A DNA stretch of 36,225 nucleotides from an uncultured Bacteroidota bacterium (lineage in GTDB: Bacteria > Bacteroidota > Bacteroidia > 2-12-FULL-35-15): contig CAIQBY010000076.1 of assembly GCA_903870175.1 (NCBI GenBank), forward strand, positions 1-36,225, in the 5' to 3' direction. The translations under genes and the position numbers were made by a program. Shown here one piece after another: positions 3,491-35,446 of the stretch. The notes beneath the pieces are model-generated. The model was given only the letters and a program-made list of their open reading frames with translations. It ran no database searches and was not told the origin of the DNA. Numbering within the stretch: the stretch's first letter is position 1; each line of letters begins with the position of its first letter.

Positions 3491-6034
3491 ATGAAAAAAG
3501 CTACATTAATTATTGCCGGTATATTTGTCATTAGTTCTATATTTGCTCAGCGAACAAATGACAAGAAGAGTGAGTCGGGATTTGTTCAATGCTCTGAATT
3601 CCACGAGACAAAACCACTAAGAGAACTATTTCCTAACAGTGCTGAAGAAGAAAAAACAGCATTTGTAGAACGTGAAATAGAAGACAGGGATGGAAATATA
3701 CCTCAACAATTCCCAAAAACAGTTGAACACGATGGTCCTGTTTACGGTAATGATCCAACAACAATTCAATCAACTATGGGAAGCATTCACAACAGGGCAC
3801 CTATTCATAGCTGGGCAGGGCAGGCAGCCACAGGATTTTTTCCTTTAGATCCTTCAGGTGCAGTTGGTCCAAACCATTATGTTCAAATGATAAATGCGAC
3901 TACATTTAAAGTTTGGAACAAAACAGGAACAGCTTTATTAACTGGTACATTAGGAAATTTATGGTCGCCGGCAACCGCAAATGATGGTGATCCGGTAGTG
4001 CTTTATGACAAAGGAGCTGACCGTTGGTTTATGTCACAATTCGGGCAGACAGGAAACAGTATTTACATAGCAATATCAAAAACAGCTGACCCTACTGGAG
4101 CTTGGTACACCTATACATTTACTTCTCCAGTATTTCCTGATTACTTAAAATTTTCTGTTTGGCAGGATGGATACTATATGTGTTCTAACGCTCAAACAAG
4201 AGTATTTGCTTTTGAAAGAGCAAAAATGCTTATTGGTGACGCATCTGCAAAATCTGTTTATGCTTCATATACACAAAGCCCAACTAGCGGGTTCTTTTGC
4301 CCAATGCCGGCAGATGCAGGAGATGGAACATTGCCTCCGGCAGGAACAAAATTACCCTTCTTCGCTTACACAGATAATGGTTGGGGAGGATCAAATACTG
4401 ATGCAGTAAAAGTTTGGAATACCACAGTTACATGGGGCACAACCCCAACAATGACAGCTACTTTAAATGCTACTTTAGCAACTGCAGCCTTTGATGCATC
4501 ATACAATTCGAGCTGGAATGACGTTTCGCAACCTGGGACTACTCAAATGCTTGATGGAATTGGCGGTGTTTGTATGTTCAGAGCGCAGTATAAAGTATGG
4601 AGCACTTATAATTCAGTCGTGCTTAACTGGGCAGTAAAAATAAGTTCGACCCAACGGAGTATTAAATGGGTGGAATTACGCCAGAATTCATCAGGTACGT
4701 GGTCATTATATCAGGAGGGTATTTATACGCCTGATACCGATACCCGATGGATGGGAAGTATTGCAATGGATAATAATGGCGGGATTGCATTGTGTTATAT
4801 GAAATCAAATTCTTCAACAATTTATCCCGGATTATATTATACAGGCAGAAAGGCATGCGACCCACTTGGACAAATGACAATTGCTGAAACTCAAGTGGTA
4901 GCAGGTATCGCATCTCAAACAGGTGGTGTGAACCGAGATGGCGATTACTCTGAAACATGGCTTGATCCTGATGGTGTTACCTTTTGGCATACCGGCATGT
5001 ATATGGGAACAGGTGGCGCTCAAAAAACACAGGTATATTCTTTTACATTACCTCAATGTATAGTAAGTGCACCACCAGTAGCTGCTTTTTCTACTTCACA
5101 AACAACAATATGTACCAGCCAATCTGTTTCTTTTACTGATTTAAGTTCGAATCTTCCAACGTCTTGGTTATGGACTTTTGCCGGTGGAACTCCTGCGACT
5201 GACACCACTCAACTACCTACGGTTGTTTATAACTCTCCCGGAACATATCAAGTTAAACTTATTGCAACAAATTCTTATGGAAGTGGTGTAGATTCGGTAA
5301 CCAATTATATCACAGTAAATGCAGCACCGCCATCACCAACAGCAACCAGTAATTCTCCACTTTGTAACGGGCAAACTATTAATCTTTCTACTCCTACTGT
5401 TGCCGGTGCAACTTATACGTGGACAGGTCCAGTAAATTATTCCTCTACCGCTCAAAATGCTACCCGACCTGCAGCACCTGCCCTTTCAGGAACATACACA
5501 ATTACTCTAACAGAAGGTAGCTGTTCCAGTACAGGAACTGTATCCGTAGTTGTATATGCTAACCCTGCTGCACCGACAATAACAAATTCAGGTAATACAT
5601 TAACTTCGTCCGCTACTACAGGCAACCAATGGTATCTCAATGGTGTATTAATTTCCGGAGCTACCGGACGAACTTATACGTCTACTCAAAGTGGAGTATA
5701 TACTGATATTGTAACCGTTAACGGATGTTCTTCAACTGCTTCCAATTCAATAACCATTACTGGTATCGCAGAGTATTCAGAAGACAATTCTCTGGCTATT
5801 TATCCGAACCCTAATGAAGGTGCTTTTACAATTTCATTGCATTCAAATGTAAAAAGAACTTTCAAGGTTGAAATAGTAAATGAATTGGGACAATTAATTT
5901 TCACTCAGAATTTAAATGATGTTTATGGAGATTATACTCAACCTATTGATATTTCAAGGTTCGGAAAAGGTGTTTATATGTTTGTATTAACAGATGATAA
6001 ACACGAAACAGTGAAAAAGGTTATTGTTTATTAA
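3491..6034 (+). CDS. T9SS-exported PKD-domain surface protein (paralog 1)
   Basis: An 847-residue exported protein of unknown activity. It starts MKKATLIIAGIFVISSIFAQ, a clear signal peptide. Residues of about 20-525 form a large Trp/Tyr/Gly-rich region containing GAVGPNHYVQMINATTFKVW and DGDPVVLYDKGADRWFMSQF. The repeated short beta-rich segments suggest a propeller-like fold, but I do not recognise an enzyme family. A PKD domain follows at about 527-609 (SFTDLSSNLPTSWLWTFAGG), then Ig-like modules to about 755, including QWYLNGVLISGATGRTY. The last 80 residues (YPNPNEGAFTIS ... KKVIVY) are a type A T9SS sorting domain, so the protein should cross the outer membrane and be anchored or released. 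It is closely related to the next gene, with its own promoter and terminator, and the pair looks like a tandem duplication. Confidence 0.85.
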   Translation: MKKATLIIAGIFVISSIFAQRTNDKKSESGFVQCSEFHETKPLRELFPNSAEEEKTAFVEREIEDRDGNIPQQFPKTVEHDGPVYGNDPTTIQSTMGSIHNRAPIHSWAGQAATGFFPLDPSGAVGPNHYVQMINATTFKVWNKTGTALLTGTLGNLWSPATANDGDPVVLYDKGADRWFMSQFGQTGNSIYIAISKTADPTGAWYTYTFTSPVFPDYLKFSVWQDGYYMCSNAQTRVFAFERAKMLIGDASAKSVYASYTQSPTSGFFCPMPADAGDGTLPPAGTKLPFFAYTDNGWGGSNTDAVKVWNTTVTWGTTPTMTATLNATLATAAFDASYNSSWNDVSQPGTTQMLDGIGGVCMFRAQYKVWSTYNSVVLNWAVKISSTQRSIKWVELRQNSSGTWSLYQEGIYTPDTDTRWMGSIAMDNNGGIALCYMKSNSSTIYPGLYYTGRKACDPLGQMTIAETQVVAGIASQTGGVNRDGDYSETWLDPDGVTFWHTGMYMGTGGAQKTQVYSFTLPQCIVSAPPVAAFSTSQTTICTSQSVSFTDLSSNLPTSWLWTFAGGTPATDTTQLPTVVYNSPGTYQVKLIATNSYGSGVDSVTNYITVNAAPPSPTATSNSPLCNGQTINLSTPTVAGATYTWTGPVNYSSTAQNATRPAAPALSGTYTITLTEGSCSSTGTVSVVVYANPAAPTITNSGNTLTSSATTGNQWYLNGVLISGATGRTYTSTQSGVYTDIVTVNGCSSTASNSITITGIAEYSEDNSLAIYPNPNEGAFTISLHSNVKRTFKVEIVNELGQLIFTQNLNDVYGDYTQPIDISRFGKGVYMFVLTDDKHETVKKVIVY

Positions 6035-6064
6035 GGAATTAAAAAAAACTTCTTTTTTCTTAAT

Positions 6065-6093
6065 AAAAGTTCCGCAGAAATGCGGAACTTTTT
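6065..6093 (+). terminator. Intrinsic terminator after the first secreted-protein gene
   Basis: A perfect 12-bp stem, AAAAGTTCCGCA (6065-6076) against TGCGGAACTTTT (6081-6092), is closed by a GAAA tetraloop and followed by T residues. It lies 30 bp after the stop. The remainder of the spacer to 6327 shows no gene or repeat that I can support. Confidence 0.85.
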
Positions 6094-6327
6094 GCGTTTA
6101 TACCATTGAAGCGAATTCGATTTATCTAATGATGGTTTTTATATTTGGTTAATATTTCCCTTCCCTCAGTGAAGAATAAGGAGACCAAAAATAGTTGGCT
6201 GGACTTAATAACGAACAATGGCGTTAAGATATACAGTAAATACACCTTTTGTCTTTTTATTCATCTCCGAAAATTTGTGTTTAGTCTATAATTGACCTGT
6301 AAATTTTTTTAGCCTCTTTAGAAGTAT

Positions 6328-6335
6328 TACTTTTG
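6328..6335 (+). promoter_or_regulatory. Candidate -7 element for the gene at 6399
   Basis: TACTTTTG matches TAnnTTTG and lies 63 nt before the ATG. No good TTG sits at the usual -33 distance, only a T-run, so support is moderate. Confidence 0.4.
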
Positions 6336-6398
6336 CTTCGAAAAACAGAGTAATAACAAGATTAACTCTCGAAATTTTAATAAAGTATAACACTAAAA

Positions 6399-9281
6399 AT
6401 GAGAAAAAACACATTAATTATTGCAGGAATAATTGCAACGAATTTATTATTTGCACAACGCACCTCCAAACTTGAAGAGAAAACAAGTTTTGTTACATGT
6501 TCCGAATTTCATGTAACAAAACCTTTAAGCGAAATTTTTGCTAACAATCCATTAGAAGGAAATAATACATATCGTAAGCAGGAAAGTGAAGACCGAGAAA
6601 ATAACAGACCCCAGAAATTCCCATTGACTGTCGAAAAAGATGGCCCTGCTTATGGAAATGATCCTTCAACAATACAAACTACAGACGGTTTTATACATAA
6701 CAGAGCTCCATTACAAAGTTGGGCCGGGCAAACAGCTTCAGGTTTTACTCCATTAGATCCTTGCGGCGCAGCCGGACCTAATAACTATGTACAAATGATA
6801 AATGCAACCACATTTAAAGTGTATAGTAAAACAGGTACTGCCCAACTAACAGGTACTCTTGGTAATTTGTGGACGCCTCACCAAACATATAATGACGGTG
6901 ACCCTATTGTGCTTTACGATAAAGCTGCTGACAGATGGTTCTTCTCTCAATTTGGAGATAATGACGGTGCCGCAGGAAATTATGTTCACATTGCAATCTC
7001 ACAGACAGGTGACCCGACAGGTGCCTGGTACACTTATACATTTACCGCTCCTTTTTTTCCTGACTATTTGAAATTTTCTGTTTGGCAAGACGGGTATTAT
7101 ATGACTTGCAATTCCAATTCTGCCGGAGCTTCTCCAACAATATTCGTTTTTGAAAGAACTAAAATGCTTGCAGGTAATTCTGCTGCGAGAATGTTAACTA
7201 AAACGTATGCTCCTTCTTATAATTCAGGTTGGTTTTTTATTCCGTTAACTGCTGATGGAGGTGATGGGGCTTTGCCTGCTACCGGAGCACCTTGCCCTAT
7301 TTTCTCATATTCTGACAACGGATGGGGAAGTGGATATACTGACGCAATCAATGTTTTTCATATCGCTGTAAACTGGACTCCGACAACTCCGACTGCTACT
7401 GTTACTGCTGCCGGGACAATTGCAGCAGCAGCTTTTGATGCATCGTACGATTCAAACTGGAATGATGTTTCTCAACCTGGCACTACAGAAAAACTTGACG
7501 GAATTGGCGGAGCACTCATGTTCCGTGCCCAATATAAAATTTTCAGTGGATATAATTCAGTCGTGCTTTGCTGGGGAGTAAAAATAAGTTCAACTCAACG
7601 AGGAATTAAATGGTGCGAGCTGCGTCAAACAGGAGGAACGACTTCTTCATGGACAATGTATCAGGAAGGAATTTTTGCGCCAGCAACTGATAATCGTTGG
7701 ATGGGAAGTATTTCTCAAGATAATAATGGTTCTATAGCTCTTTGTTATTTAAGAGATAATGCAACTTCTATGTATCCTTCTTTGTATTATACCGGCAGAC
7801 GTTCTTGTGACCCGCTGGGAACTTTTACTGTCGCTGAAACATTAGTGAAAGCCGGTACAGCTTCTCAATCTACTTCAACAGGAAATCGTGATGGAGATTA
7901 CGCTGAAACTTGGCTTGACCCTGATGGGGTGACTTTCTGGAATACTGGTATGTATATTGGTTCCGGCGGAAGTCAGCAAACTCAGATTTATTCATTCCAA
8001 ATTGCTGCCTGTGCTGCTTCTGTGCCTCCTGTTGCTTCATTCACAGCAGCTTCCACATCAGTTTGTGCAGGTCAATCAATTGCATTTACAGATAACAGTA
8101 CCAATTCGCCAACAAGCTGGGCCTGGACATTTGCAGGACCTACAACTCTTACTTCAGCATCTCAAAGTCCTACTATGACTTTTGCGACAGCAGGAACTTA
8201 TAGTGTTACTCTTGTTGCTACAAATTCAGCAGGCAGTAATACTTCTGCAGTTACCAGCATTACTGTGAAGGCTATACCTGGGACACCAGCGCCTACTACC
8301 AATTCGCCGATATGCGCAGGTGCTACAATCAATTTAAATTCTACAGCAGTTACCGGTGCAACGTATGCATGGGCAGGACCAAGCACATATACTGCAACTA
8401 CTCAAAATGCAACACGGCCTACTGCTACTGCAGCAATGGCTGGCACTTATTCACTAACCGTTACAGTTAACGGCTGCACGTCTGTTGCCGGAACTTCTAC
8501 AGTAGTAGTAAATGCAAAACCTACAATTTCGAATACTACATTAACTCAAACCATATGCTCAGGTGCTACTGCATCTTTCATGGCTACATCAGCTACTACA
8601 GGTTCTACTTTTGCCTGGACAGCATCTGCTTCTGCAGGAACAGTTACAGGATGGACAGCGTCCGGAAGCGGCAATATATCCAATGTGTTGACTAATACAG
8701 GAACAACAAATGGAACTGTTACTTATGTGGTAACTCCTACAGGCCCTACTCCTACCAGCTGTGCAGGTACAGCATCCAATTTTGTAGTAACCGTGAAACC
8801 AACCCCTTCAACACCGGTTATCACTCAAAACGGAAACGTGCTTACCTCAAGTTCAGCAACCGGAAACCAGTGGTATCATAATGGAACGGCTATATCAGGC
8901 GCTACCGGGCAAACTTATACCGAGACAGCCAACGGAACTTATACTGATATTGTTACTACCAATGGTTGTTCGTCCACCGTATCCAACACTATAACTGTTA
9001 TAAATACCGGAATTAATGAATTAACTTTGAATAATTCATTGTCAATTTATCCAAATCCGAACAACGGAATATTTACTGTTTCCTTTGATGCCGCTTCAAA
9101 AACGAATTATAAAATTGAAATCACAAACGAAATAGGGCAATTGGTATTCAAACAGGCAATCAAAGATGCATCAGGCACATATTCTCAAACCATCGATATT
9201 TCAACGTATGGCAAAGGTATGTATCTGTTTACGCTTACCGATGATAAAAACCAATCCATCAAAAAAGTACTCGTATATTAA
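6399..9281 (+). CDS. T9SS-exported PKD-domain surface protein (paralog 2)
   Basis: A 960-residue paralog of the preceding gene product, sharing the signal peptide style (MRKNTLIIAGIIATNLLFAQ), the long N-terminal region (AAGPNNYVQMINATTFKVY; DGDPIVLYDKAADRWFFSQF) and the PKD domain at about 541-625 (SFTAASTSVCAGQSIAFTDN). It differs mainly by one additional Ig-like module (from about TISNTTLTQTICSGATASF through VVTPTGPTPTSCAGT), which accounts for most of the extra 113 residues. The C-terminus has the T9SS type A sorting domain (SIYPNPNNGIFTVSF ... KKVLVY). The substrate or partner is unknown. The same MRK/MKK-TLIIAGI start in both copies supports a tandem duplication followed by module gain or loss. 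It has its own terminator and a weak promoter, so the two genes appear separately transcribed. Confidence 0.85.
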   Translation: MRKNTLIIAGIIATNLLFAQRTSKLEEKTSFVTCSEFHVTKPLSEIFANNPLEGNNTYRKQESEDRENNRPQKFPLTVEKDGPAYGNDPSTIQTTDGFIHNRAPLQSWAGQTASGFTPLDPCGAAGPNNYVQMINATTFKVYSKTGTAQLTGTLGNLWTPHQTYNDGDPIVLYDKAADRWFFSQFGDNDGAAGNYVHIAISQTGDPTGAWYTYTFTAPFFPDYLKFSVWQDGYYMTCNSNSAGASPTIFVFERTKMLAGNSAARMLTKTYAPSYNSGWFFIPLTADGGDGALPATGAPCPIFSYSDNGWGSGYTDAINVFHIAVNWTPTTPTATVTAAGTIAAAAFDASYDSNWNDVSQPGTTEKLDGIGGALMFRAQYKIFSGYNSVVLCWGVKISSTQRGIKWCELRQTGGTTSSWTMYQEGIFAPATDNRWMGSISQDNNGSIALCYLRDNATSMYPSLYYTGRRSCDPLGTFTVAETLVKAGTASQSTSTGNRDGDYAETWLDPDGVTFWNTGMYIGSGGSQQTQIYSFQIAACAASVPPVASFTAASTSVCAGQSIAFTDNSTNSPTSWAWTFAGPTTLTSASQSPTMTFATAGTYSVTLVATNSAGSNTSAVTSITVKAIPGTPAPTTNSPICAGATINLNSTAVTGATYAWAGPSTYTATTQNATRPTATAAMAGTYSLTVTVNGCTSVAGTSTVVVNAKPTISNTTLTQTICSGATASFMATSATTGSTFAWTASASAGTVTGWTASGSGNISNVLTNTGTTNGTVTYVVTPTGPTPTSCAGTASNFVVTVKPTPSTPVITQNGNVLTSSSATGNQWYHNGTAISGATGQTYTETANGTYTDIVTTNGCSSTVSNTITVINTGINELTLNNSLSIYPNPNNGIFTVSFDAASKTNYKIEITNEIGQLVFKQAIKDASGTYSQTIDISTYGKGMYLFTLTDDKNQSIKKVLVY

Positions 9282-9308
9282 AGACTATAGTTTTTGTTTG
9301 TAAAAAAG

Positions 9309-9344
9309 TTCCGTTTCGCTTTAATCGAAACGGAATTTTTTTTT
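9309..9344 (+). terminator. Intrinsic terminator after the second secreted-protein gene
   Basis: TTCCGTTTCG (9309-9318) pairs perfectly with CGAAACGGAA (9326-9335) around a 7-nt loop, followed by nine T residues. It lies 27 bp after the stop codon. Confidence 0.85.
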
Positions 9345-9381
9345 CGCTCCTCCATTCCTCTTCCTAATTATGTGAATTGCT

Positions 9382-9405
9382 TTGTTTAAATATGGTTTTA
9401 AACAA
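9382..9405. repeat. Perfect 9-bp inverted repeat flanking array 2
   Basis: TTGTTTAAA (9382-9390) and TTTAAACAA (9397-9405) are perfect arms with a 6-nt spacer. There is no T-tract of terminator type. It may be a protein-binding site or an end of the repeat-bearing insertion. Confidence 0.5.
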
Positions 9406-9510
9406 TTGTTGATGCGCCATGGTGTTGGAAGAAGGGAATGGAGTGAAGTGTTTTTTGTCGTTTATAGAGAGGCAGTTAAAATGAAAAAAGGGAATTTTAA
9501 CAAATGCCTC

Positions 9511-9781
9511 GCGATGGTGCGCGAGAGCAACGCGATGGCAAAAAACGATGCGCGATGGTCCGCGAGAAGATCGCGATGACGAGTTTGTCTCATGCGATGA
9601 TGCGCAAGAGCAACGCGATGATAAAAAATGGCGCGCGATGGTTCGCGAGAGCATCGCGATGGTGAGTTTGCCTCGTGCGATGATGCGCGAGAGCAACGCG
9701 ACGGTGAGAATGGGTGACGCGATGGTGCGCGAGAGAGAAGCGATGGTGCGAAAAGGTGATGCGATGAGAAAATTTCAGCTT
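9511..9781. repeat. 21-bp degenerate tandem array 2, about 13 units
   Basis: Units begin with GCGATG (one GCGACG) at 9511, 9532, 9552, 9573, 9594, 9615, 9635, 9656, 9677, 9698, 9719, 9740 and 9761. All steps are 21 bp except two of 20 bp. The best unit is GCGATGGTGCGCGAGAGCAAC. Alternate units are more alike, giving a 41-42-bp higher-order period. Cores are near-palindromes around CGCG (for example CATCGCGATG at 9652-9661). Local GC is far above the neighbours. The array crosses several overlapping open frames on both strands. The 20-bp steps change frame, so I treat it as non-coding. The flanks, 9406-9510 and 9782-9966, hold nothing else I can name. Confidence 0.85.
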
Positions 9782-9966
9782 CGGCTGCCAGAAATGCAGG
9801 GTAAGTTTTGTAAAATTGAGAGAGGAGAATATAATTTATCGAGCTTGTATATTGTTCTTAGACACCTTGCTTAGTAAATTAGTATCCATTATATATCCGA
9901 ACCCTACTTAATTTCATTACATATTTCCAGAATACTATAACAGGCGTCCAAATAATTACCTCGACT

Positions 9967-10002
9967 TTTGATGAACAATAAATCAATTAAATTCTATATT
10001 TG
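9967..10002 (+). promoter_or_regulatory. Promoter candidate for the YHYH-MbnP-MbnH operon
   Basis: TTTG (9967-9970) and TATATTTG (9995-10002), a perfect TAnnTTTG, are separated by 24 nt, slightly longer than usual. The -7 element ends 21 nt before the ATG at 10024. No second promoter is evident before the next two genes, which are closely packed. Confidence 0.45.
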
Positions 10003-10023
10003 TAACACTATAAATTAAACCCT

Positions 10024-11241
10024 ATGAAAAAACTATTTGTTATTTGCAGTGCCGCATTATCAATTAATATAGCATCAGCTCAGGGTCCCGAAGTTACTTC
10101 GTGGATACAAAACACAACTGCTACCAATCCTTCTTACCCTTCTCTTGTCTCTAATTGCCAGTTGGTGCAGTATTCGGCTACGGAAGTATATGTAAGCTGC
10201 ACCTGCATTCCGGGTTATGCAATCGGTCCGTGGACAGGCAATCCGAATACACCGGCAAATCAAAACTTCGTGTTTAAGTTTACACGTTCTCCTCAGCAGA
10301 ACACCGGAACAGCTACTGCAATTGGACTTGGGCATATAGGTGTATGGAAAAACGGAGTAAGTGTTTTTAACGTTTCCGATGCAATGAGCTATAATAATGC
10401 CGGAGTCTGGAACCGAAATGCTTATTTCTGGGAAGGTCCAGGGTTTGATCTTTGCTTAGGACATCCTCAGCAACAGGGCGAATATCATCATCACGTAAGC
10501 CCAACCTGTTTGTACGACCAAACTGACAGTATACATCATTCGCCTGTTATCGGCTATGCTTTTGACGGATTTCCTATTTATGGTGCTTATGCTTACAGCA
10601 ACCCGACAGATATTACAAGTCCATTGAAAAGAATGAAATCAAGTTATGTGGATACAACAACTACAACTCGCGGAGGCGGCACCGGACCTATTGTAAGCAG
10701 TACTTACCCAGCAGGTTGTTTTATTGAAGACTTCAAATATGTTGCAGGAAGTGGAGATTTGGATGCCCGCAATGGCAGATACTGCATCACTCCTGAATAT
10801 CCAGCAGGAACGTATGCTTATTTTGTTACTCTCGATAATAACTTGAACCCAGCTTTCCCCTATACTTTTTATGGTTCTTATTATGGAGTAGTGCAAACAG
10901 GAAATACCGGTCCAAGTGGCGGACATGTTACCATTACTGAAACAACAACTGTTTATTCATCAGTAGGCGCAGGCATTAACGAAGCAAGCAAAGATATTAC
11001 ATTTGAATTTCTTCCAAATCCTGTTGTTGATTATGCTTATATTTATTTCACTCCCGAAAGCAGGAATAATATTATCGGCAGCTTGTATAACTCAACAGGG
11101 CAGCTTGTTCAGACAATAGAAAATATGCAGCCGAGTATTTCTTATGCTTTAGATATGACAAAATATCCCGAAGGAATTTACTTTTTGAATTTAGTTTCAG
11201 GTGATAAGAAAGTAGTTCAGAAGATAGTGAAATCAAAATAG
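10024..11241 (+). CDS. T9SS-sorted YHYH domain protein
   Basis: A 405-residue exported protein. The signal peptide MKKLFVICSAALSINIASAQ is followed by a YHYH domain (a family named for its conserved motif; biochemical role unsettled). Its hallmark is CLGHPQQQGEYHHHVSPTC near residues 144-160, followed by IGYAFDGFPIYGAYAY. The clustered His residues, with nearby Cys and Asp, suggest a metal site; that is inference. The C-terminus (FLPNPVVDYAYIYF ... KIVKSK) is a T9SS sorting domain, so the protein should end up at the cell surface. It is the first gene of an apparent operon, 18 bp ahead of the MbnP-like gene and co-directional with the di-heme peroxidase. That setting hints at a role in copper or other metal handling. 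Domain call firm, function open. Confidence 0.85.
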   Translation: MKKLFVICSAALSINIASAQGPEVTSWIQNTTATNPSYPSLVSNCQLVQYSATEVYVSCTCIPGYAIGPWTGNPNTPANQNFVFKFTRSPQQNTGTATAIGLGHIGVWKNGVSVFNVSDAMSYNNAGVWNRNAYFWEGPGFDLCLGHPQQQGEYHHHVSPTCLYDQTDSIHHSPVIGYAFDGFPIYGAYAYSNPTDITSPLKRMKSSYVDTTTTTRGGGTGPIVSSTYPAGCFIEDFKYVAGSGDLDARNGRYCITPEYPAGTYAYFVTLDNNLNPAFPYTFYGSYYGVVQTGNTGPSGGHVTITETTTVYSSVGAGINEASKDITFEFLPNPVVDYAYIYFTPESRNNIIGSLYNSTGQLVQTIENMQPSISYALDMTKYPEGIYFLNLVSGDKKVVQKIVKSK

Positions 11242-23597: not shown

Positions 23598-23996
23598 TTA
23601 TTTTTTTGTTGCAATTAAATTATCATTATCAAATAATGCGGAAACAACTTTTCCGGAAACATTAAAATTAATTCTACAGGCATAATATCTAATTGAGCCC
23701 AATTTCATAGAAAATCCATCTTCCCAAAATGGTTTGAATAGAATTATTGAAGAAGTACTATCCGCAAATATTAATTTTCCATCACAGGAAATTCCTTTAT
23801 TGCTGATTGGTCTTTGTCGATTATCTAGTAAAAACGCATAGAGATTTGGATAACTGTTTTTCAACTCTATATTATACATTCCTGCCTGCTTTACGACACC
23901 ACCATGTGGTCCAACAGGATTATCCATTAAATTTAATGAGATTAATGTTATTGTAATTAATAAAAATACTGCAATAAGTATATAAGTTGCTTTCAT
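23598..23996 (-). CDS. Membrane-anchored small protein with PHGG motif
   Basis: A 132-residue protein with an N-terminal transmembrane helix (YILIAVFLLITITLISLNL), then a periplasmic domain starting NPVGPHGGVVKQAGMYNIEL. PHGG/HGG-type openings with a following 'Y-x-I-E-L' occur in small periplasmic domains associated with metal efflux in Bacteroidota; this is recall, and I would not name a function. There is a single Cys in SCDGKL and one in YYACRINF. A 28-residue membrane peptide gene ends 9 bp upstream, and the two likely share a promoter. It converges on the MBL-fold gene (49-bp gap). Confidence 0.55.
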   Translation of the reverse strand: MKATYILIAVFLLITITLISLNLMDNPVGPHGGVVKQAGMYNIELKNSYPNLYAFLLDNRQRPISNKGISCDGKLIFADSTSSIILFKPFWEDGFSMKLGSIRYYACRINFNVSGKVVSALFDNDNLIATKK

Positions 23997-24005
23997 TGTA
24001 ATATT

Positions 24006-24092
24006 TTATTCGTACAAATTTAACGTAACCGAAAATGCAGTTGCGATTACTATAAATAACAAAACCAATAGTATTATTTTCGAGGTCATCAT
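24006..24092 (-). CDS. 28-residue single-span membrane peptide
   Basis: A minus-strand frame from ATG 24092 (or the adjacent second ATG 24089) encodes MMTSKIILLVLLFIVIATAF plus SVTLNLYE and ends with TAA at 24006-24008. It is a single hydrophobic helix with a charged N-terminal flank. It lies 9 bp ahead of the PHGG protein gene and has a TAnnTTTG element 15 nt upstream of its start. It is unrecognised and may be a small accessory subunit. The length is short, so chance is possible, but promoter placement and operon spacing favour a real gene. Confidence 0.4.
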   Translation of the reverse strand: MMTSKIILLVLLFIVIATAFSVTLNLYE

Positions 24093-24107
24093 TTATAAAT
24101 TATTTCA

Positions 24108-24115
24108 CAAAAATA
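24108..24115 (-). promoter_or_regulatory. -7 element for the small membrane peptide / PHGG operon
   Basis: On the minus strand this reads TATTTTTG, matching TAnnTTTG, 15 nt ahead of the ATG at 24092. The -33 region is poorly defined. Confidence 0.35.
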
Positions 24116-24213
24116 TATATACAATAAATTATTTGTAATGAGTTCAATCAAAAGATTCAGTGATTCTTGGCATTTTATGATTTTTAGAAACATGAAGCAA
24201 TAAAATGACAATT

Positions 24214-24227
24214 GTGATGAACATCAC
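24214..24227. promoter_or_regulatory. CRP/FNR-like palindrome in divergent spacer
   Basis: GTGATG (24214-24219) and CATCAC (24222-24227) are perfect arms around AA. The extended sequence TGTGATGAACATCACT resembles TGTGA-N6-TCACA sites bound by CRP/FNR-family regulators. The centre lies about 64 bp before the likely transcription start of the SprB-repeat gene, a position used by activators of this family. No such regulator is encoded in the window. Confidence 0.4.
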
Positions 24228-24271
24228 TATCTCTTTTGACCAACTCCATTTCATCCCCAATAGCTACAAAA

Positions 24272-24279
24272 TACTTTTG
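24272..24279 (+). promoter_or_regulatory. -7 element for the SprB-repeat gene
   Basis: TACTTTTG, a perfect TAnnTTTG, lies 47 nt before the ATG at 24327. There is no good -33 TTG, which would fit a promoter that depends on an activator at the upstream palindrome. Confidence 0.4.
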
Positions 24280-24326
24280 TGCAAGTAAATTTTTAGTACT
24301 ACTAACGAACAATTTAAAAAAAAACA

Positions 24327-24464
24327 ATGAAAAAGAGAATTACATTAATCGCGGCAGGCTTATTCTTAAGCCTTTTGAGTACGCATGCACAAACAACCTG
24401 TTCGGATGACAGGAATGCATACGTCGACTCAAAAAATGAGGCACGACAGGTGCTTACACATTAA
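24327..24464 (+). pseudogene. Detached signal-peptide fragment of the SprB-repeat gene (frameshift)
   Basis: The ATG at 24327 encodes MKKRITLIAAGLFLSLLSTH followed by AQTTCSDDRNAYVDSKNEAR, a perfect signal peptide and start of a mature protein, then runs into TAA at 24462-24464. The natural continuation (GAYTLTIGAEEKASQTYHYSG) is in the frame entered by one missing base between about 24440 and 24461. The TGA at 24437-24439 in that frame sets the upstream limit. This may be a sequencing error, a true lesion or a phase-variable site, although no long homopolymer lies inside the limits. Confidence 0.75.
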
Positions 24465-24592
24465 CTATCGGTGCAGAAGAGAAAGCTTCTCAGACGTATC
24501 ATTATTCGGGACCTGGCAAAGTAGGTGGTGCCAGGGTTTATGGAACAGTTCCATTAGGCTTAGGAGTAAAATTAAGAGTAAGTCTTTACAAT

Positions 24593-27500
24593 GTGGATTC
24601 TAATGGCAGACCAACAGGAACAGCCCTTGCAACAGCACCTATTCAAAATTTCTACGCATGGAGTCCTGCATTTTTTGATGTGAGTTTTTCTCCGGCGGTG
24701 GCAGTAAATAGTAATTTTGCTTTAGTAGTAGAAATAGTAAATGTTCCGGGATGGGGACGTGACTTTGCTCTTCGCTATACAGGCAACGGTGAAGGCCTTG
24801 GAGAAGATTTAGCTTCATTAGCAGGAACTTCCACAGGATTCAATTGGGCAAGTGCGATGAGTGCATTTATCAAGGATGGCGATTTTTATATTTGCCCTAG
24901 AATGATAAACTTTAATACACCAATGTTTTCTCTTACATCAACATGTGTAAATACTGGAGCCTCATTGTCATTTATAAACAGTACACAAATGACTACAGAC
25001 AGTATGTTCAACAAAATTACGCGACAGGGATACTCAGGTTCGAACTCCTTATATAGCTGGGACTTTGGTGATGGAACTACTGTTTCTCATTTAGCAAATC
25101 CTACTCATGCTTACGCAACTGCTGGTATGTATACAATAACTCTAACTTCTATGATTGAAGGATGGAGTGGAAATTGTATCAAGACATATTCCAAAGTTGT
25201 TTCTGTTGGTCTTGCAGTTAATGCAACAGCAATAACTAATGTAACCTGCAATGGTTCAAATAATGGAAGTATCATTGCTGTTGGCACTGGCGGCGCAACT
25301 CCTTACACCTATAGTATTAATGGTGACAGTTATCAATCTTCAGCAAATTTCACTGGATTGATTGCTCAGGTATATAATTTGTATGTGAAAGATGCTCATG
25401 GATGTATTCAAACAACAAGTTTTATAATTAATCAACCTGTTGTTATTCATTTCACTACTGCATCTTCTACTAATGCAACTTGTGGAAACGCAGATGGTGG
25501 AATCTTAGTTGCTTCTTCCGGTGGCGTACCTCCTATGCAATACAAATGTAATTCAGGAACTTATCAATCAAGCGGAACATTCTCAGGATTAACTGCAGGT
25601 GCATATACAATTACTGCCAAAGATGCAAATGGTTGTACTTATTCTACAATAGTTGTGGTAAGTAATTCAAGCGGACCTGCTTTTAGTGTTACTAATTCAA
25701 CAAATGTAAGTTGTAACGGAGGAAACGATGGAAGTATCTCATTAACTTCTTCAGGAGGAACAGGAACTGTTCAATATAGTATAAATGGAGGAACAACCTA
25801 TCAGGCAAGCGGAACTTTCACAAATGTGACTGCAGGTACATATACTGCAATTGTAAAAGATGCTGCAGGATGTACTGATATAAGAATATTTCATATAACT
25901 GAACCTCAAACAATACGATTAACAGCTTCAACAAAAGACCTTACTTGCAATGGAAGTGCTAATGGAGAAATTAATGTAACCACAACAACAGGCGGTACTG
26001 GTTCTGTAGTGTACAGCCTAGATAATATCAGTTATCAGTCAGGAACAAATTTCCTTGGCTTAACTGCCGGAACATATACTGTATATGCAAGAGATATTGT
26101 AGGATGTGTAAGTAACATTTTAGCAACTTTATATCAACCGACTTCAGTATCTGCAACTGTAACTCCAACTAGTGCAGCTTGTAATGGAAATCAGGATGGT
26201 ACCTTAACAATCACAGGCAGTGGCGGAACATCAGGATATGAATATGGAATCGGTACTGATGGTGAATACCAAAGTACCGGTATCTTTAGCAATTTAGCCG
26301 CAGGCACTTATCCTTTGGTTGTAATAGACGCAAATGGATGTATCTTCAAAACAACTGGAACTATCACTCAGCCTTCTGTTATAGTGCCTGTTGCTACATC
26401 AACAAATTCAACTTGCAGTAATTCAAATGGAGGAATTATGGTTACGGCAACTGGTGGTTCCGGTTCCGGTTATACTTATAGTATAAATGGCGGTACTTTC
26501 GTAGCCGGTACTTTTTCATCATTAGCTGCTAGTACTTATGTGATAACAGCACAGGATGGAACAGGATGTACTTCTACAATTAATGCAAGTGTATTCGATT
26601 CAAACGGTCCTTCTATTCTTTCAAGCAATCATACTAATGTTAATTGTAATGGAGGAAGTGATGGAACTATTACTGTAGGCACTGTTTCTGGTGGTACTGG
26701 TACTCTTCAATATTCCATCAATGGTACTGCTTATCAAATATCTCCTGTATTCAGCGGTTTACCTGCCGGTGTTTACAATGTAACTGTAAAAGATGCTGTA
26801 GGATGCATCGGTAATGTTACTGAAACGCTTACAGAACCAAATGCTTTTGTAATCACTACAAATGTTGTAAATGCAACTTGTAACGCAAGCAATACCGGTT
26901 CAGTAGCATTGCAAGTTGGCGGCGGTGCCGGAACTTTAGCTTACAGCATTAATGGCGGAAGCACATATCAGTCGAGCAGTACTTTCTCTAATTTAGGTGC
27001 AGGCACTTATGGTGTTTTGGTTAAGGATGCAGGTGGTTGTTTTGGTTATGTATTAGCAACAGTTACTGAGCCTCTAGTAATTTCATTGTACTGTAATACT
27101 TTAAATATTAACTGTCATGGAGCAAATGACGGATCAATTTCGGTAACAGCTTCAGGAGGAACAGGTGCTTTGAAATACAGTATAGATGGAGCAACTTATC
27201 AGACACCAAATTTATTTTCAAATCTATTTGGTGGTTCTTATATAGTATATGTTAAAGATGCAAGCGGATGTATTAAAACAATTCCTGTAAACCTTTATGA
27301 ACCTACTGCTTTAAGTGTAACAGCTAACGCATCAGACGTGACATGTTACGGTGGGAATAACGGAGCAATTGCATTATCTGTGACTGGAGGAACATCTAAT
27401 TATTATTTCAGCTGGTCAAATGAAGTAACTACTCAAAACAATTTTAATCTTACTGCAGGTACATACACTGTAGTTGTGCATGATGGAAACAATTGTATTT

Positions 27501-28015
27501 CTACCACTAATTATACAATTGGACAACCTTCAAGTCCGGTGATAGTTAATGGAACTGTTGTTAATTCAACAGGAACAAATAACGGAGCCATTAATATTGC
27601 TGTAACAGGTGGTGGAGGAACATATACTTTCCTTTGGTCAAATAACGCAACAACAGAAAATGTTTCAGGTTTAGCTCCAGGTGTATATTCAGTAATTGTT
27701 ACTGATGCTAACGGATGCTCCGCATCTTCAACCTTCCTGATTACTAACACAGCAGGAATTGCAACTTATGATGCTTTAAGTGATCAGGTATCAGTTTATC
27801 CAAACCCTGCTAATGATTACGTAATAGTAGAAGTGGATGGCTTCAGAATTGATAAAGTTGAAGTTTATGATGTGCTTGGTCAAGTTGCATTCAAAGGTGA
27901 ATTTAATAATTCTAAAGTTGAAATCAACACAGCAGGTTTAAATCAAGGAGTTTACTTTGTTAAAGTTTTAGTGGATGAGAAACTTATCACTAAAAAGGTG
28001 AGAATCATTAAATAG
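24593..28015 (+). CDS. Large SprB-repeat surface protein with T9SS sorting domain (5' end frameshifted)
   Basis: A 1140-residue open frame from GTG 24593. The true gene very probably starts at 24327 and has lost its frame near 24450; no ATG exists in this frame upstream of 24593, and the frame itself is open back to 24440. After about 120 residues comes a PKD domain (YSWDFGDGTTVSHLANPTHA), then eleven SprB-type repeats of about 80 residues, each opening like NVTCNGSNNGSI and closing like VKDAHGC. SprB is the mobile gliding adhesin of Flavobacterium, and similar repeats occur in many Bacteroidota adhesins. The C-terminus (SVYPNPANDYVIVEV ... TKKVRIIK) is a T9SS sorting domain. It is probably a long surface fibre for adhesion. 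No motility genes are nearby. Confidence 0.85.
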   Translation: MDSNGRPTGTALATAPIQNFYAWSPAFFDVSFSPAVAVNSNFALVVEIVNVPGWGRDFALRYTGNGEGLGEDLASLAGTSTGFNWASAMSAFIKDGDFYICPRMINFNTPMFSLTSTCVNTGASLSFINSTQMTTDSMFNKITRQGYSGSNSLYSWDFGDGTTVSHLANPTHAYATAGMYTITLTSMIEGWSGNCIKTYSKVVSVGLAVNATAITNVTCNGSNNGSIIAVGTGGATPYTYSINGDSYQSSANFTGLIAQVYNLYVKDAHGCIQTTSFIINQPVVIHFTTASSTNATCGNADGGILVASSGGVPPMQYKCNSGTYQSSGTFSGLTAGAYTITAKDANGCTYSTIVVVSNSSGPAFSVTNSTNVSCNGGNDGSISLTSSGGTGTVQYSINGGTTYQASGTFTNVTAGTYTAIVKDAAGCTDIRIFHITEPQTIRLTASTKDLTCNGSANGEINVTTTTGGTGSVVYSLDNISYQSGTNFLGLTAGTYTVYARDIVGCVSNILATLYQPTSVSATVTPTSAACNGNQDGTLTITGSGGTSGYEYGIGTDGEYQSTGIFSNLAAGTYPLVVIDANGCIFKTTGTITQPSVIVPVATSTNSTCSNSNGGIMVTATGGSGSGYTYSINGGTFVAGTFSSLAASTYVITAQDGTGCTSTINASVFDSNGPSILSSNHTNVNCNGGSDGTITVGTVSGGTGTLQYSINGTAYQISPVFSGLPAGVYNVTVKDAVGCIGNVTETLTEPNAFVITTNVVNATCNASNTGSVALQVGGGAGTLAYSINGGSTYQSSSTFSNLGAGTYGVLVKDAGGCFGYVLATVTEPLVISLYCNTLNINCHGANDGSISVTASGGTGALKYSIDGATYQTPNLFSNLFGGSYIVYVKDASGCIKTIPVNLYEPTALSVTANASDVTCYGGNNGAIALSVTGGTSNYYFSWSNEVTTQNNFNLTAGTYTVVVHDGNNCISTTNYTIGQPSSPVIVNGTVVNSTGTNNGAINIAVTGGGGTYTFLWSNNATTENVSGLAPGVYSVIVTDANGCSASSTFLITNTAGIATYDALSDQVSVYPNPANDYVIVEVDGFRIDKVEVYDVLGQVAFKGEFNNSKVEINTAGLNQGVYFVKVLVDEKLITKKVRIIK

Positions 28016-28034
28016 AGTTTTCCTTTCAATGAAT

Positions 28035-28104
28035 TACCCCGAGGCAGAGCCTCGAGGTATCAGTTAAAGGATTTTTTTAATTCCGAGGCAGAGCCTCGGG
28101 GTAT
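28035..28104. repeat. Two copies of a GAGGC-AGA-GCCTC hairpin repeat
   Basis: CCGAGGCAGAGCCTCG occurs at 28039-28054 and at 28083-28098, each flanked by GGTAT on its right. Each folds as a GC-rich hairpin with an AGA loop. The first extends to TACCCCGAGGC/GCCTCGAGGTA with one mismatch. They sit between the SprB-gene stop and the true terminator. This resembles interspersed palindromic repeats that occur in many Bacteroidota intergenic regions; that comparison is from memory. Confidence 0.7.
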
Positions 28105-28131
28105 TAACCGACAACCTAATAAAGCTAAAAT

Positions 28132-28160
28132 CGTCCTGTATTACTACAGGACGCTTTTTT
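28132..28160 (+). terminator. Intrinsic terminator after the SprB-repeat gene
   Basis: CGTCCTGTA (28132-28140) pairs perfectly with TACAGGACG (28145-28153) around TTAC and is followed by C and six T residues. Confidence 0.85.
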
Positions 28161-28226
28161 ATTTAGAGTGCTTTATGTTTGCTTATAGAAATGAAACTGA
28201 TTAATTATAATTTTAATATAATAACT

Positions 28227-28391
28227 TTAAACTATACAATAATTATCGAAATCATTATTTTTATTAGTAAATTCATCAATTTTAAAATCAAGGATGTTTA
28301 AAATTGTTTGTTTCTGCTCTTTTTTCAAAACCTCAAAATCAGTGATATCAACCAGTTTAAAAGTTAATTCAGTAACAATAGGATTTTCTCT
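28227..28391 (-). pseudogene. Start-less coding remnant
   Basis: The minus strand is open for 54 codons from 28391 to the stop at 28227-28229 and reads RENPIVTELTFKLVDITDFE then VLKKEQKQTILNILDFKIDE and FTNKNNDFDNYCIV. It is protein-like, but has no ATG and follows an in-frame TAA. It is in the same frame as the 94-residue ORF just upstream, separated only by two stop codons (TGA and TAA), so the two could be pieces of one decayed gene. The family is not recognised. AT-rich chance openness remains possible. Confidence 0.3.
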
Positions 28392-28403
28392 TTAAGTTTG
28401 TTG

Positions 28404-35253: not shown

Positions 35254-35348
35254 TTGACCTGTTTTATCAAGTAATTTTTATTGATTATTTATTTGGGCGA
35301 ATACCGTTTCTGCAATCTCGCAAGTTCGTTCCCGCTTTCCCCTTCAAT

Positions 35349-35446
35349 CTTTTTATTCTTCTGAAAAAGAAGAATAAAAAGGATTTCCGGTACAATCGGG
35401 CGCAGTTTGAAGGTTATCGCGGTCACTGAGCCTGTCGAATTGCACC
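35349..35446. repeat. Hairpin element and REP-like remnant in convergent spacer
   Basis: CTTTTTATTCTTCT (35349-35362) and AGAAGAATAAAAAG (35368-35381) are perfect 14-bp inverted arms around GAAAA. At 35421-35446 lies GGTCACTGAGCCTGTCGAAT followed by TGCACC, similar to the TTCGACAGGCTCAGTGACC palindromic repeat scattered through many bacterial genomes; that similarity is recalled, not searched. The 300-bp spacer is otherwise free of genes. Confidence 0.6.

Follow-up and report, generated by a model that had tools for sequence, protein, structure and literature searches.

SprB of Flavobacterium johnsoniae is described as a 669 kDa protein with a type B tail and the partner SprF (PMC9143113). 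The gene examined here has in common with it the Pfam SprB repeat and the route of export, the T9SS. Unlike SprB, it would encode a protein of ~1.2 thousand residues with a type A tail – with 1191 codons and a tail of another type, this adhesin is not SprB itself. Literature searches for SprB combined with phase variation and frameshift, and for 'SprB repeat' combined with T9SS and adhesin, returned no match.

A second point of comparison is provided by the singleton frameshift genes of Antonov et al. 2013, which those authors regard as likely products of indel mutation or sequencing error (PMC3711429). The gene described here likewise shows a single frame transition, confined to one genome, and neither a usable motif nor conservation; the tests made revealed no difference from such singletons.

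The closest relatives are orthologs (G006, G020, G023, G015 and loci L029-L034) that are T9SS type A cargo with PKD and SprB repeats (PF13573) and are 46-67% identical to the long frame. Five that were scanned with Pfam (L010, L011, L012, L029, L034) share the same order of signal peptide, N-terminal domain, PKD domain, 8-10 SprB stretches and Por_Secre_tail. Since the proteins of these five have 1226-1244 residues, the word 'giant', used for the adhesin in an initial annotation of the sequence, overstates its size. The gene here differs from its orthologs in lacking one base past the signal peptide, so that its product would not be exported if the sequence is right.

One gene in two reading frames

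The analysed stretch of DNA (the window; 36,225 nucleotides) is the entire contig C76 of a 3.95-Mb draft genome (423 contigs, 96.6% complete, 3.6% contaminated), which is the sole assembly of the species compared. Its relatives and its T9SS point to a Bacteroidota genome, probably a MAG. The features of the split gene are as follows.

24327..24464, + strand: 5' fragment, with ATG, signal peptide (predicted), first mature residues and then out-of-frame residues to a TAA; in-frame homology to 11 relatives up to SKN (24437)
24431..24437, + strand: A AAA AAT heptamer containing the A6 run, in frame 0; a -1 slip reads TGA 24437-24439 next
24438..24439, + strand: frame-break site, where the codon following SKN holds two bases (DNA alignment with L029, G006, G031 and G020)
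24440..28015, + strand: 3' fragment, the adhesin frame, with 1191 open codons and a stop at 28013-28015
24440..24970, + strand: family-specific N-terminal domain of the mature protein; modelled as beta-rich with modest confidence, and without a confident relative by fold
25007..25150, + strand: PKD domain (PF18911), residues 139-186 of the GTG frame
25691..25798, + strand: top-scoring SprB repeat (PF13573), residues 367-402 of the GTG frame
27794..28006, + strand: T9SS type A C-terminal sorting domain (PF18962, TIGR04183), residues 1068-1138 of the GTG frame

The short open reading frame, 24327-24464, encodes 45 amino acids and is halted by TAA 24462-24464, as the initial annotation had it. 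Its appearance and homology point to a signal peptide, and are likewise the basis of the epithet 'perfect' given to it earlier. The long open reading frame, 24593-28015, encodes 1140 amino acids from a GTG that is the earliest ATG, GTG or TTG within the frame 24440-28015. The earlier description of this frame as having only a GTG start and no export signal is confirmed, though the frame is open already from 24440, directly 3' of TGA 24437-24439. The 51 codons that precede GTG 24593 are conserved.

We observed eight stretches of SprB repeat in the protein and a sorting domain that scores well above the cut-offs of both type A models (PF18962, 50.3 bits against 27; TIGR04183, 49.7 bits against 23). 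The type C model NF033708 also matches the sorting region, at 31.3 bits and thus below its cut-off of 40, and no type B sorting family matched the long frame at E up to 0.001. The tail is therefore that of a T9SS type A secreted protein – but here the signal peptide sits in a different frame from it. The T9SS translocon SprA (TIGR04189) is present in the genome (2587 bits, an open frame of 2448 amino acids on G000:C223). When the model of the N-terminal domain (mean pLDDT 64.7) was compared with the PDB, the top two matches were phage baseplate chains (E 4e-4 and 6e-4). We do not claim them as fold relatives, because the model is modest, the TM-scores are near 0.4 and the remaining list is mixed.

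Other features of the window include three further T9SS-tailed proteins clustered at 3491-11241, all in open frames, two with PKD domains and one a YHYH protein. A Flavo-1 RNA (RF01705) lies at 35324-35407 on the - strand (68.7 bits against a gathering score of 42).

An intact version of the gene in related genomes, which the initial annotation had proposed as a check, was sought in 59 genomes (own included) and in genome contigs by peptide patterns. This search yielded 11 loci with the N-terminal region (L010-L014, L029-L034), 10 of which are complete and unbroken, while L014 (in G031) ends at a contig edge. In all 11 the signal peptide and the adhesin N-terminus form one continuous frame, so the frame split seen here is not a matter of chance. 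The N-terminal domain was found in six of 36 genomes of the genus, own included, and the gene therefore looks dispensable. A blastn search of plasmids with 24327-25000 found no related DNA.

Alignment to these relatives locates the break. Residues through SKN (24327-24437) align in frame 0 and all residues from 24440 align in the other frame, such that the relatives' ...AYVNSKN-linker-GAYTL...EEKASQTYHYSGPGK is found here split across both sides of the break. Alignment is close on either side, confining the break to one variable linker codon. Codon-position counts agree with this frame assignment. In the 5' piece, third positions differ from L029, L010, L014 and L011 at 17, 16, 16 and 14 of 37 codons, with 8-11 first-position and 5-8 second-position differences; L011 gives a weaker signal, with 14 differences at third and 11 at first positions. 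For the 3' piece, counted in the other frame, third-position differences are about twice the second-position ones (341, 262 and 599 of 1188 at the three positions for L029). As the DNA alignment and these counts indicate, the locus is, by homology, a single gene split in two by one missing base. The SprB repeats, the T9SS tail and the relatives' continuous frame thus bear out the earlier reading of a SprB-repeat adhesin parted from its signal peptide. That reading had placed the missing base between about 24440 and 24461; the relatives support a single missing base, but its site is 24438-24439, just upstream of that interval. An exact 10-nt inverted repeat (24429-24438 / 24669-24678), probably present by chance, has a left arm that ends at the frame break.

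Origin of the frame break

If the base is truly absent from the cells, a gene for a T9SS-exported SprB-repeat surface protein would have lost one base in a variable linker codon after the signal peptide. Ribosomes starting at ATG 24327 would then make a 45-residue stub ending at TAA 24462-24464, and no surface protein would be made because the large part lacks an export signal. Only a base that is truly absent would leave the gene silent in the sampled cells.

We give about an even chance to such a real loss, namely a recent, unprogrammed loss-of-function mutation in a dispensable and patchily distributed gene. Supporting it are the 11 of 11 unbroken relatives, the confinement of the break to one linker codon, the patchy occurrence in six of 36 genomes and a different lesion in the G031 ortholog. 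No stop interrupts the 1191 codons of the long frame. With 129.8 stops to be expected for each unit of neutral divergence, this limits the age of the loss, if real, to less than about 2.3% neutral divergence, making it recent. This copy's end branch exceeds its sister's by a modest amount (0.33 against 0.25), and the conserved promoter described below fits a gene in use until recently. The open remainder, the promoter matching that of the orthologs and the modest end branch fit an error in the consensus equally well, however. A consensus error – living cells carry the gene unbroken and the draft lost one base, for example through low coverage or strain mixing – is a substantial possibility that we rate somewhat short of even. 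The assembly is in many contigs (423), and the rest of the gene is in order, from promoter and signal peptide through 1191 open codons to the sorting domain. According to Cooley and Wright, assembly errors account for many bacterial pseudogenes, and low coverage is a main reason for them; their causal signal for frameshifts alone was of low confidence, and MAGs lay outside their assessment (PMC11017572).

Against this possibility we can set a frameshift survey, for which 68 stretches of relatives (1.26 Mb) supplied 1419 stop-to-stop frames to compare with 41 stretches of the genome itself (0.54 Mb, window included). The survey reached genes with a relative among the 68 stretches and breaks away from gene ends; the G015 locus was present in duplicate, and six of the 41 own stretches were almost all N (13,006 bases masked) and uninformative. 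A single one of 104 coding places (97 kb) was flagged as frameshifted – the adhesin break, by eight query frames from seven loci. Stricter runs flagged one of 42 and one of 103 places, and the reverse direction flagged none of 136 places in the relatives, a count that does not cover the G031 stretch with its second lesion. The draft is therefore not rich in indels. That none of the 103 further coding places is flagged argues against a consensus error, though one error in 97 kb is possible. The local sequence argues in the same direction: a homopolymer miscount is not an obvious cause at 24438-24463, where no run exceeds 2 nt, although the A6 run ends two bases upstream of it.

The G031 ortholog is 87-89% identical to that of G006. 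Its lesion (at L136, G031:C146, reverse strand, about 1175-1190) leaves the SprB repeats about 101 bases net shorter than in G006 and changes the frame before the sorting domain. Because G031 is a fragmentary draft (about 540 contigs) and the lesion falls within repeats, it is possibly an assembly collapse. It supports recurrent gene loss, or recurrent assembly trouble in fragmentary drafts.

The initial annotation had also raised the idea of a reversible switch for surface variation, in which slippage or recombination toggles the frame. Surface proteins are typical targets of phase variation, an A6 run adjoins the break, loose inverted pairs flank it and the gene of one relative carries a lesion of its own. 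The sequence at the site nevertheless lends the idea no support. Mononucleotide runs of at least 4 nt in 24300-24620 are A9 (24316-24324), A5 (24330), T4 (24373), A6 (24431-24436) and A4 (24568), and within 24438-24463 runs do not exceed 2 nt and short tandem repeats are absent. The A6 run is below the 7-nt tract that Antonov et al. give as the minimum sign of phase variation (PMC3711429), and no change in its length can restore the frame because TGA 24437-24439, which follows it, comes into frame. A search of 23900-28400 for near-exact inverted repeats (14-nt seed, at least 16 nt) found none; looser pairs, which AT-rich DNA probably yields by chance, reach 18 nt at 83% around the break (24297-24314 / 24713-24730). 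No homopolymer of at least 7 nt and no tandem repeat was found whose length change restores the frame, the 10 complete orthologs are unbroken, and the G031 lesion is elsewhere and of another kind. We therefore reject phase variation by repeat tracts or inversion, and consider a switch of any such kind very improbable. The A9 run, upstream of the ATG, could vary in length and alter expression; it cannot affect the frame.

Still less probable is a joining of the two frames by programmed ribosomal frameshifting or by slippage in transcription. Frame 0 does contain a heptamer of slippery form, A AAA AAT (24431-24437); a -1 slip on it, however, meets TGA at once, and no other heptamer of this form occurs in frame 0 before TAA 24462-24464. 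The relatives are unbroken and need no shift, so there is nothing conserved for recoding, and we found no slippery site that both opens the new frame and is conserved. Recoding was rejected on these grounds, as was a two-gene reading of the locus, in which a small exported peptide would stand beside a separate cytoplasmic protein that begins at GTG 24593. Mechanical open reading frames are all that favours the two-gene reading, to which we assign a practically negligible probability: the two sides belong to a single protein in all 11 relatives and the codons upstream of GTG 24593 are conserved. A T9SS tail without a signal peptide would, moreover, be useless to its protein.

A shared promoter layout

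Whether lost in the cells or in the draft, the missing base lies downstream of a conserved promoter with two elements.

24213..24228, + strand: FNR/CRP-type palindrome TGTGATGAACATCACT, with the core TGAT-N4-ATCA at 24215-24226; one mismatch to TGTGA-N6-TCACA
24272..24279, + strand: Bacteroidota -7 box TAnnTTTG, TACTTTTG; present in 7 of 12 loci

We take TAnnTTTG to be the Bacteroidota -7 promoter consensus, and the regulator family is our assignment from the shape of the palindrome. The box lies within 250 bases of the ATG in seven of the 12 loci (window, L010-L014, L029); it is absent from that interval in the five more distant ones, L030-L034. In all seven loci with a box, the palindrome starts exactly 59 nt before it. 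Mismatches to TGTGA-N6-TCACA number zero in L010, one in the window and L012, two in L011, L013 and L014, and three in L029; L011, L012 and L029 have an additional matching site.

The palindrome alone is unremarkable in the window (one found against 1.26 expected). Its distance from the box is more telling. At the adhesin the core TGAT-N4-ATCA lies 45 nt upstream of the -7 box, and this gap occurs twice in own and 12 times in relatives' stretches, against 0.03 and 0.38 per other gap. We observed a second peak for the same core at a gap of 23 nt, which is 22 nt nearer the box (11 in relatives, one in own). With the looser core TGA-N6-TCA, gap 23 has six own and 24 relatives' matches and gap 45 has five and 19, with no other gap above five. 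Second sites at the 22-nt spacing come from stretches of G000, G006, G015, G023 and others, and the placement of the pairs would suit two dimers separated by two helical turns. The adhesin's own second TGA-N6-TCA site, 22 nt downstream of its first (window 24237-24248), is one letter off.

Across the whole of its own genome, 16 matches have gaps of 30-60, and in six of them the gap is 45 (window 24213-24279 and L142-L147). The chance of this is 7e-6 for one given gap and 2e-4 for any of 31; the gap was first noticed at the adhesin, itself one of the six sites. The other five precede a universal stress protein, a cupin, an Hsp20, a T9SS-tail protein (Pfam) and, in one case, no clear gene; for the universal stress protein, the nearest long frame is 244 nt beyond the site, after a short frame. 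Among the matches listed for the genus, the pattern exceeds its backwards control in nearly every genome, and the share with gap 45 varies by genome in a by-eye count of those matches (15 of 35 in G015, none of eight in G008). A literature search for this promoter layout with Crp, Flavobacterium, TAnnTTTG, universal stress protein and Hsp20 returned no match.

These motif counts suggest a shared FNR/CRP-type regulon, with a putative regulator, that includes the surface adhesin. It is conceivable, though very unlikely, that the adhesin is a contingency surface protein of such a stress regulon, repeatedly knocked out and restored in populations – by a break after the signal peptide here and a separate break before the sorting domain in a relative.

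Implications

The case is an ordinary frame break. A recent loss or a slip in assembly is its most likely cause, rather than a switch. The frameshift itself matters little, being one broken or mis-assembled gene among many. Its use is as a warning against reading a switch into every T9SS adhesin gene that is split in a draft genome. The fixed promoter layout links a surface protein to Hsp20, Usp and cupin genes, and could make the regulation of T9SS surface proteins testable in a little-studied genus.
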